DNA of 64,000 nucleotides, from positions 1-64,000 of the IMG/VR virus record IMGVR_UViG_3300017989_000062, one strand, 5' to 3'. The stretch is from a virus. Below are positions 3,792 to 12,330 of this stretch, in pieces. Each line of letters starts with the position of its first letter. Position 1 is the stretch's first letter. The position numbers and the translations under genes are program-made. The notes under the pieces were generated by a model. The model was not told the DNA's origin, did no database searches, and saw only the letters and a list, made by a program, of their open reading frames with translations.

Positions 3792-4169
3792 TTACATCCA
3801 GTGACCAAAATCATTGAGATGAGGAATATCAAACTCATATTCATCACCACCCCACTGATATGGTTTTTCTTTTGTAGTTTCCTCTTGTGTTACTTCTGGA
3901 TTTTGCTTCTTTTGATAAGCTTTTACCCATCTTGAATTAGGATTAGTTGATGTACAACTAACCAGTTCAATCTCATCACGCCAATCAACTGTTTCTTCCC
4001 GTTTCCATTTAAGAGATGCAAAACATCTGAAACATTGATCTGGTAACTCATCCTCCCAAACTTTAACTGGTTTGACAGGGTCATGTTCTAATCTATGCGC
4101 CAAAACTGGCGCTCCACAAACAGTTCATGTATCATCAGGAACAATAGCCTGTAGTATTCGCATGAACAT
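3792..4169 (-). CDS. zinc-ribbon-like protein with in-frame TGA (candidate selenoprotein or readthrough)
   Basis: From the ATG at 4169 (AAGGA 7 nt upstream) the frame reads MFMRILQAIVPDDT, then TGA (4127-4125), then TVCGAPVLAHRLEH and on to a TAA at 3792. If the TGA is read through, the product is 125 residues with x15-x-x-C18 and C46-x-x-C49, so the TGA occupies the place of the first Cys of a CxxC pair. The only start after the TGA is a TTG at 4103 with a poor site. Right after the TGA is a perfect 6-bp GC hairpin. Alternatives: a Cys-to-stop mutation, a sequence error, or UGA read as Trp. Confidence 0.55.
4097..4112 (-). promoter_or_regulatory. SECIS-like hairpin after in-frame TGA
   Basis: On the minus strand GCGCCA, loop GTTT, TGGCGC: a perfect 6-bp stem in AT-rich DNA. 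The apical loop starts 18 nt after the TGA and begins with G. This fits the general layout of bacterial SECIS elements (stem-loop a short distance after UGA with a G early in the loop). It could be chance. Confidence 0.4.
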
Positions 4170-4492: not shown

Positions 4493-4579
4493 GGTGCTAG
4501 AATCTACTCATACTACCCTCAAGCAATGTACCGCGCGATATACTGCTGTCTCGTTTAGTCATGTTGCAGCTCTAGCACC
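4493..4579 (-). other. possible structured 3' region closed by 9-bp inverted repeat
   Basis: GGTGCTAGA (4493-4501) is complementary to TCTAGCACC (4571-4579), which overlaps the end of the YqeY-like gene. The enclosed 69 nt contain no convincing gene. It may be an untranslated structure or tRNA-processing spacer. Confidence 0.3.
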
Positions 4580-4982
4580 AAGCTGACATTAAAACTTCTT
4601 TGACGTCATTTCCGTCTGCTTTTCCTTTGAGGTCCTTCATGATTGGACCCATTGCTTGCATCTTGTTTTTAAACTGAGACAGATCGACGTTGTCAGTTAT
4701 ATGTTTGAATATTTCATCTTTTGACATCATTTGAGGTAAATAAAATTCAACGATCTCAAGAAACGTTGTTGGTTTTCCATCTCCGATAACCTGGAGTTCA
4801 TTCTTTCTGAGTTTTCGGAGAATACCAATCATTTCTTCTTCCGTTGCTTCCTCCCCAGCCTTTTTGTTCAGCCTTGGAATCTCTCCGAGTATGACTCGAA
4901 TGGCATCTTTTCGATCTTGGTCATTTGTCATCATTGCAAGTTTCAATGCAACTCTGAGTTGTGTTTCAGTTAAACACATCAT
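4572..4982 (-). CDS. YqeY/GatB C-terminal-like protein
   Basis: 136 residues, all helical in character. The pattern (LRVALKLAMMTNDQDRKDAIRVILGEI... EEATEEEMIGILRKLRKN... MGPIMKDLKGKADGNDVKEVL) matches the YqeY family, related to the tRNA-binding tail of GatB. Family members are thought to act in tRNA-linked processes, though their exact role is unsettled. It begins with an ATGA overlap with the HNH gene and lies among tRNAs, which fits an RNA-related job. Confidence 0.85.
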   Translation of the reverse strand: MMCLTETQLRVALKLAMMTNDQDRKDAIRVILGEIPRLNKKAGEEATEEEMIGILRKLRKNELQVIGDGKPTTFLEIVEFYLPQMMSKDEIFKHITDNVDLSQFKNKMQAMGPIMKDLKGKADGNDVKEVLMSAWC

Positions 4983-6915: not shown

Positions 6916-7005
6916 TGGTGGCGGAAGTGGGATTCGAACCCACACGAGCTAATGCTCACAAGATCCTCGGTCTTGCGCGGCTGCCATAGTTTACGCCATT
7001 CCGCC
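6916..7005 (-). tRNA. tRNA-Leu(GAG)
   Basis: 90 nt; acceptor GGCGGAA/TTCCGCC, A discriminator, encoded CCA; anticodon stem CAAGA/TCTTG, loop CCGAGGA gives GAG, reading CUC/CUU. Long variable arm. Confidence 0.95.
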
Positions 7006-7669: not shown

Positions 7670-8029
7670 TGGTGGAGGTGCCGAGAGTCGAACTCGGGTC
7701 CAACGATGTTCCATATCAGTATCTACGCTCATATCTGCACTACTATTCCAACTTTGGGGGCGTGGTGCAGAACTTCCCAAAGAGGTTTGCTGGTAATCTT
7801 TATCTAAATGGTCCCAGCACCGTATCTAGATGCATCTCTCTAGTCGACGCTCAATTCCAGATAGAGAGAAGTCTCTGGATTGAACGAACCCGCTTTAAGC
7901 AGCGAGTCTAACTTCAGTATAATAATCGTCTGCAGTTATGTTTAAGTAGTCAATTTTTAACGCAGCCTTTTGACCAACTGCGGAGCGCAACCTTTACTTC
8001 TCCATCCCTGTCGATACCTTTTCACCCCC
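7670..8029 (-). ncRNA. ssrA: tmRNA (one-piece transfer-messenger RNA)
   Basis: 360 nt. The 5' end GGGGGTG pairs with the 3' CACCTCC, placing a G-U at the third acceptor pair, the alanine identity element used by AlaRS. The 3' end has a T-arm (GAGTTCGACTC) and A plus encoded CCA. The 5' flank GTATCGACAGGG matches the conserved tmRNA start. The tag frame begins at GCA (7933-7931) and encodes ADDYYTEVRLAA then TAA (7897-7895); the LAA end is a ClpXP-type degron. It rescues stalled ribosomes with SmpB, which is not seen in this window and is presumably host-supplied. Confidence 0.95.
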
Positions 8030-8394: not shown

Positions 8395-9354
8395 CTATCC
8401 TCCGAAGAGTTTCAAATTCATATTCTCTATTCTCGTTACTAACTGAGCTATTTGAGTATAACCATAGTTAACTAACCTTTGATTAACTTCTTTCTCTGCT
8501 TCTGCCCAGGTTCTATTTAGATCTTGTCTAATCATCTTACAAAAGTTCCAAGTAAAAGCTCCTTGAACTTTATTATTGAAATAACCTTCATAAGAGTAAT
8601 TATCTTCAGCACAACCAGCAAATAGAATGTGTCTTTGATCAACAATTCCAACAGTCGCTTTTTGACCAAATCGTTTGATTTTAGTTCTCCCAACAAGCTG
8701 AGCTGCCAGATGTTGTGGAGGCGCTAAAAATCTAATTTTACGTTGTTGAAATGTATTAATCCTTGATAATGCTCTTGAAACAGTTCCGCTATGACAAGAA
8801 TCACAAATAAATGTCATTTGCGCTCCTTCTGGAACTTTCTTGAAATAGGAGGCAAGAATGTCATCAGTAAATGGATCGTCAAAATTCAGATCTGTGGGAC
8901 AGATAATTTCATCCATTCCATCTGCTTCATCCGCGTTATTATCAGGAACTTGTGAACCATGACCAGAAAATGACATAACAAGTTCATCACCAGGAATAGC
9001 ATTATCTACAAGATTAGCCAAACCTTTAATAATGTTGGATTTTGTTGCCTCATAATCAAATATCAATTTTATGTTTTGAGTTTGAAAATCAAACTTAGAA
9101 ACTAAAATATTGTCTATGTTTAGAGCATCTTGTACACACCCGCTTAAATCACAATCGAATGCTGGATCATATTTATTTACTCCAATGAGCAACGCTCTTT
9201 TCTCTGGCTGTCGTGTTGGTGTTTCTACAACAGGTTGAGATACAGATACTGTTTCTGGAGGTGCAACAACAACTTCACTCTTCATCATACTAATCGCGTC
9301 ATTTATTTGTTGTTGAGCAGCTTCTAATTTTTGAAGAATGACAGTTTTGTTCAT
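8395..9354 (-). CDS. caspase-fold peptidase (metacaspase-like)
   Basis: 319 residues, peptidase C14 family. The core runs from about residue 52 (KRALLIGVNKY) with the catalytic His at 132 in SGHGSQ and the catalytic Cys at 187 in CDSCHSG, both intact; the DE-rich loop at 138-150 fits a calcium-regulated metacaspase. The first 50 residues form a helical/Pro-rich prodomain. Metacaspases cut after Arg or Lys. No signal peptide, so it is probably cytoplasmic. Good AAGGAG site. Such a gene is unusual in phages; it could process phage proteins or interfere with host death pathways. Confidence 0.9.
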   Translation of the reverse strand: MNKTVILQKLEAAQQQINDAISMMKSEVVVAPPETVSVSQPVVETPTRQPEKRALLIGVNKYDPAFDCDLSGCVQDALNIDNILVSKFDFQTQNIKLIFDYEATKSNIIKGLANLVDNAIPGDELVMSFSGHGSQVPDNNADEADGMDEIICPTDLNFDDPFTDDILASYFKKVPEGAQMTFICDSCHSGTVSRALSRINTFQQRKIRFLAPPQHLAAQLVGRTKIKRFGQKATVGIVDQRHILFAGCAEDNYSYEGYFNNKVQGAFTWNFCKMIRQDLNRTWAEAEKEVNQRLVNYGYTQIAQLVTRIENMNLKLFGG

Positions 9355-12258: not shown

Positions 12259-12330
12259 TGGCAGGCCTGCGAGGAATCGAACCCCGTCCTACTGTTTTGG
12301 AGACAGTTTGGTAACCATTACCTCAGACCC
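12259..12330 (-). tRNA. tRNA-Trp(CCA) with short D-arm
   Basis: 72 nt; acceptor GGGTCTG/CAGGCCT, encoded CCA; anticodon stem ACTGT/ACAGT, loop CTCCAAA gives CCA. The T-arm is normal. The D-region (AGGTAATGGTTACCA) is about 4 nt shorter than usual and position 8 is not U. Confidence 0.85.

Follow-up and report, generated by a model that had tools for sequence, protein, structure and literature searches.

In a small gene of a phage, the reading frame is interrupted at codon 15 by a TGA, at a site where one would expect a metal- or redox-binding cysteine, which raises the question of whether this codon is a stop, an error or a damaged Cys codon, or whether it is read as selenocysteine (Sec). The window analysed was a stretch of 64,000 nucleotides (positions 1 to 64,000 of the IMG/VR record IMGVR_UViG_3300017989_000062), which forms part of a virus record of 149,482 bp, referred to below as the contig.

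Interrupted reading frame and its coding signal

The features of the interrupted gene are as follows.

4169-3792, minus strand: interrupted ORF of 14 codons, TGA, 110 codons and TAA (from translation and codon-usage scores)
4169-4167, minus strand: ATG start
4127-4125, minus strand: TGA of codon 15, in frame, where a C-x2-C-G knuckle would have its first Cys
3794-3792, minus strand: terminal TAA of the interrupted ORF

A preliminary description of this DNA had noted an ORF that continues through a TGA at codon 15 into 110 more codons, and the coordinates were exact, the strand, which it had left unstated, being minus. With the TGA read as Cys, the protein is MFMRILQAIVPDDT[C]TVCGAPVLAHRLEHDP...DQCFRCF..., with the motif spaced C-x2-C-x27-C-x2-C, and the TGA was seen in the translation at the first Cys of a CxxC/CxxC set, as had been proposed.

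Scored for codon usage with the genes of the phage itself as training set, the frame reached 0.31 bits/codon upstream of the TGA (P 0.018, since 1.8% of wrong-frame windows of 14 codons reach this score) and 0.29 bits/codon downstream of it, real phage genes averaging 0.21, and every other frame of the 4169-3792 stretch had a negative score. By these scores, the in-frame UGA has coding sequence on both sides, as expected of a selenoprotein gene. No further stops or frameshifts were present in the 110 codons after the TGA. The marks of a pseudogene, namely more stops, frameshifts or a coding signature lost past the stop, were not observed, and this is also compatible with a very recent mutation.

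In the 149-kb contig and the related phage sequence that was scanned (G001, G003-G006, G010, G011 and parts of others), codon 15 was the sole in-frame TGA flanked by coding sequence on either side and having Cys at +/-3. The other same-frame coding pairs split by a stop in the whole contig were neighbouring genes or shadow frames, with one exception at 86569, which was a short 13-codon TAA case directly ahead of an annotated start. When all genes were compared for a stop in a relative, nothing but shadow frames and gene ends was obtained among the matches listed. In the related phage G010 (locus L085, position 10577, plus strand), a TAA occurs after 8 codons of a small Cys-rich protein and the frame continues as ...EFPDHAICPVCGTN, which may be a start-site question.

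Promoter and neighbouring genes

The following features surround the gene.

4273-4245, minus strand: sigma-70-like promoter TTAACT-17-TATAAT with an extended TG at the -10
4242-4231, minus strand: perfect palindrome GAAATATATTTC, operator-like copy 1
4201-4190, minus strand: perfect palindrome GAAATATATTTC, operator-like copy 2
3780-3580, minus strand: DUF6811 gene, next in the presumed operon (Pfam PF20657, E 5e-15)

A Shine-Dalgarno sequence, AAAGGA, lies ahead of the ATG at 4169, after the promoter and both palindromes. The two GAAATATATTTC palindromes just downstream of the promoter are perhaps an operator for a regulator, and the longer GTGAAATATATTTC at the palindromes has no other mismatch-free copy in the window. 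Beyond the DUF6811 gene, more small genes follow in the same direction. Elsewhere in the window, a YqeY-like gene (4572-4982, minus strand, E 6e-14) is located inside the phage tRNA cluster, and a phage gene encoding a caspase domain (Peptidase_C14; 8395-9354, minus strand, E 5e-28) adjoins the tmRNA.

Stop-codon usage and tRNAs of the phage

The clamp loader and terminase had 27-34% identity to those of T4-type phages, and a terminase search in GTDB, by which the host was sought, gave no match. Papers that cite metagenome identifiers contained nothing on the habitat of the phage. Among the non-overlapping ORFs with 150 codons or more, 26 of 115 terminate in TGA, so that UGA is an ordinary stop in this phage. 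Twelve tRNAs and a tmRNA were detected by ARAGORN and a tRNA-Leu(GAG) was added by Rfam, while a UCA anticodon was absent from the contig tRNAs detected by either program.

12259-12330, minus strand: tRNA-Trp (CCA) with a short D-arm, 16 nt between the acceptor and anticodon stems
7670-8029, minus strand: phage-encoded tmRNA with the tag ADDYYTEVRLAA (153 bits against Rfam)
6919-7005, minus strand: tRNA-Leu with anticodon GAG (45 bits in Rfam, missed by ARAGORN)

Low-level read-through of the UGA by a near-cognate tRNA, for example the phage tRNA-Trp, would place Trp at codon 15. The bacterial UGA is a leaky stop at which Trp is inserted (PMC7918605), and the short D-arm of the phage tRNA-Trp is in line with this explanation; however, an efficient UGA suppressor would be costly because TGA ends so many of the long ORFs (26/115), no UCA anticodon was found, and Trp makes little sense at a metal or redox Cys position, which leaves read-through very improbable. 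Suppression of the Hirsh type by this tRNA-Trp, which had been put forward as an alternative, was rejected, as TGA is a normal stop, the UCA anticodon is missing and the D-arm appears to be shortened rather than to carry the G24A change. In addition, a phage in which UGA is recoded to or suppressed by Trp would carry a suppressor tRNA or have genes that are generally interrupted by TGA, and neither was found.

No tRNA-Sec was detected in the contig above the Rfam family cut-off, the tRNA-Sec-like matches below this cut-off coinciding with annotated tRNAs, among them those for Ser and Leu, and selB and selD were not found in the contig. Since the contig carries no tRNA-Sec, selB or selD, the Sec machinery would need to be supplied by the host. 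The SelB of bacteria is in part specific to the lineage.

Hairpin downstream of the TGA

4112-4097, minus strand: SECIS-like hairpin GCGCCA-GUUU-UGGCGC, starting 12 nt after the TGA (hairpin -9.5 kcal/mol)
4103-4101, minus strand: TTG, rival restart codon of a 103-aa ORF, spanning the loop and stem of the hairpin
4115-4112, minus strand: GGAG, possible Shine-Dalgarno for the TTG, its final G inside the stem

The hairpin had been reported as GCGCCA-GTTT-TGGCGC at 12 nt after the TGA, and both its position and its stem were confirmed, the loop GTTT lying at 4106-4103 and beginning 18 nt past the TGA. In the bSECIS model, the upper stem is 4-16 bp, the distance from the UGA to the loop is 16-37 nt and the MFE is at or below -7.5 kcal/mol, and the loop has 3-9 nt with a G at its first or second position and then, in most cases, G or U (PMC13188914). 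A check against bacterial SECIS rules had been suggested, and the hairpin after codon 15 passed every one of these published constraints, with a 6-bp upper stem, the loop GUUU, a distance of 18 nt and an MFE of about -12 kcal/mol.

The formal SECIS rules are weak, and stability in the right place is the distinctive feature. The bSECIS model is permissive, being passed by 7.7% of all contig TGAs, 6.9% of TAAs and 6.6% of TAGs, and also by 19% of synonymous recodings. An equally stable hairpin in SECIS geometry was found at 6 of the 6536 contig TGAs (the TGA of codon 15 counted in) and at 1 of 1013 Cys/Trp codons in genes, and when the same peptide was recoded synonymously, only 13 of 4000 versions (0.3%) formed an equal hairpin, because GCG, the codon of both Ala residues in the stem, is rare (11% of phage Ala codons); as the hairpin was noticed before being tested, these P values are partly post hoc. 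The z-score of the whole fold was modest, from -0.8 to -2.2, varying with the length folded. Rfam gave nothing credible on the locus, the miRNA matches falling on the AT-rich palindromes.

The functional protein might instead start at the TTG at 4103, with the 14-codon ORF from the ATG as a leader peptide or relic, for which a start codon and an SD-like GGAG 8 nt upstream are present. This start is improbable: the TTG and the end of its Shine-Dalgarno are buried in the stable hairpin, the 23 codons ahead of this first possible restart score as coding (P 0.009, with 0.9% of wrong-frame 23-codon windows reaching the score), the promoter, the Shine-Dalgarno and the ATG all favour the upstream start, and the product would lose half of the CxxC pair set.

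Residue expected at codon 15

Weak family matches spanned codon 15, one to RUBY_RBDX (rubredoxin-like knuckle) with a non-significant E of 0.13 and one to the nanos zinc finger with a non-significant E of 0.018, which aligned codon 15 with a metal-ligand Cys and went from 0.018 to about 0.5 after removal of the first 15 residues. Because these matches cover codon 15, Cys is the natural residue here and Sec its closest substitute, and the predicted protein suggests a structural zinc-knuckle ligand at position 15. Sec is unusual at structural zinc sites. An AlphaFold single-sequence model was uninformative (pLDDT 38). Metal binding is thought to be the role of some Sec residues (PMC13188914).

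Homologue searches

With the TGA read as Cys, no family match was obtained in Pfam, PHROGs, NCBIfam or PDB. Selenoproteins are usually proven by Cys/Sec exchange among homologues. Searches of phage records (50,697), plasmid records (72,556), IMG/VR (twice) and GTDB gave no homologue with either Cys or Sec, the IMG/VR and GTDB searches requiring an exact 8-residue match, so that distant relatives could escape them. There was no homologue in 23 other virus records either. All matches of a degenerate DNA motif with TGN allowed at codon 15 were unrelated, and neighbour-gene searches led only to loci of 44% identity. The sequences of the relatives G005 and G006 (72-78% DNA identity) and of G003 and G004 (about 99.99%) do not include the locus, nor this arm of the genome. 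For the comparison at codon 15 that had been recommended, these searches thus gave no homologue with Cys, Trp or a stop, nor a second sequence with the UGA conserved.

In the Sargasso Sea selenoproteome study, a TGA needed at least two Cys homologues to pass the filter, and a single sequence was treated as a candidate only, with sequencing error possible (PMC1088965). Since Cys homologues of the phage gene were not found, it is a candidate and no more by this standard (PMC1088965). A search of IMG/VR with a Sec-thioredoxin pattern, made with no positive control, gave two chance matches and no true one, a weak indication that selenoproteins are rare in phages.

Possible recent mutation or sequence error

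As the searches gave no relative of this gene, a broken gene or a sequence error retains some probability. In the first case, a recent Cys-to-stop change (TGT/TGC to TGA) would have hit the zinc-ribbon gene of this strain, leaving it broken and undecayed, and the hairpin would have arisen by chance from GCG codons. Such a change is favoured by the dispensability of small accessory phage genes. Between the contig and the near-identical G003/G004, four substitutions and no indels were observed in about 36 kb, corresponding to about 16 differences per contig with around one possibly nonsense, so that a broken allele or an error is a live rival. Also in its favour, in-frame stops are frequent in the genes of prokaryotes and mobile elements, and most of them do not persist for long (PMC7918605). 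However, Cys to TGA makes up 2.9% of the single-base stop-creating changes expected in phage genes and 14% of phage Cys codons are within CxxC, so that random nonsense lands on a CxxC Cys in about 0.4% of cases across the genome (the product of 2.9% and 14%), or in about 6% for any Cys within this Cys-rich ORF, and the hairpin would in that case be a chance event of 0.1-0.3%. A broken allele or an error calls for two coincidences, one of position (CxxC) and one of the hairpin, which makes it less likely than the raw rate indicates, and a recent Cys-to-stop change is considered rather unlikely.

It is quite improbable that the codon is really TGT or TGC and was altered by an error of base calling or assembly, given the agreement of about 99.99% with two other assemblies, the lack of indels, and the fact that nowhere else in the contig is a frame with strong coding before and after the break clearly interrupted in place. 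In favour of an error, the site is covered by one assembly only, and both other assemblies disagree with the contig at two of its four differences from G003; single-base differences in the contig do exist.

Proposed selenoprotein reading

The small gene is tentatively proposed, from its sequence, as a candidate phage-encoded selenoprotein with Sec inserted by the host machinery. The ribosome would start at the ATG at 4169 and arrive at the UGA of codon 15, the hairpin 12 nt downstream would act as a bacterial SECIS and recruit the host SelB/tRNA-Sec, and Sec would be inserted in some rounds, giving a 125-residue protein with a U-x2-C/C-x2-C set. Sec insertion, the host Sec machinery and any redox or metal-binding role are inferred. 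The frame with its coding signal, the hairpin and its agreement with the SECIS model, the promoter-like sequence and the lack of selB, selD and tRNA-Sec in the phage were observed. For the possible phage selenoprotein of the preliminary description, the bSECIS geometry, the UxxC, the coding on both sides and the non-random hairpin codons speak in favour. A selenoprotein is the single most likely explanation, although all of the non-Sec readings combined are somewhat more likely. These probabilities were not computed; they are judgements in which prior rates and the coincidences were roughly weighed. More doubtful is the full picture of a selenium-gated gene, in which a lytic phage would carry an undescribed selenoprotein family with expression dependent on host selenium and Sec in a zinc-knuckle-like U-x2-C/C-x2-C.

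If the selenoprotein reading is true, phages would be able to use the 21st amino acid, productive hosts would be limited to Sec-decoding bacteria or the gene would sense selenium, and Sec would occur at a zinc-knuckle-like site, for which there is hardly any precedent. If it is not real, the locus is a cautionary case, roughly one in every 13 random TGAs of an AT-rich phage satisfying the formal SECIS rules. No report of a phage-encoded selenoprotein was found in the searchable literature, and a 2026 review of the prokaryotic selenoproteome contains no mention of phages or viruses.

Comparison with known systems

As in phage genetic-code reassignment (code 15 crAss-like phages, PMC9523058), a stop codon lies within a reading frame; unlike in those phages, one stop in one gene is concerned here, TGA is ordinary elsewhere and there is no suppressor tRNA. 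The gene resembles small zinc-ribbon and zinc-knuckle proteins in its C-x2-C-G ... C-x2-C if codon 15 is Cys, but it has TGA at this codon and neither family match was significant. For E. coli fdhF (formate dehydrogenase H), the upper hairpin is less stable and the lower stem is longer, whereas the lower stem of the phage hairpin is weak; the base following UGA is C in fdhF and A in the phage gene, and fdhF belongs to the conserved redox enzymes and has Cys homologues, whereas the phage protein is an orphan. The two nevertheless share the 18-nt spacing and a 4-nt loop beginning with G (GGUC in fdhF, sequence confirmed).
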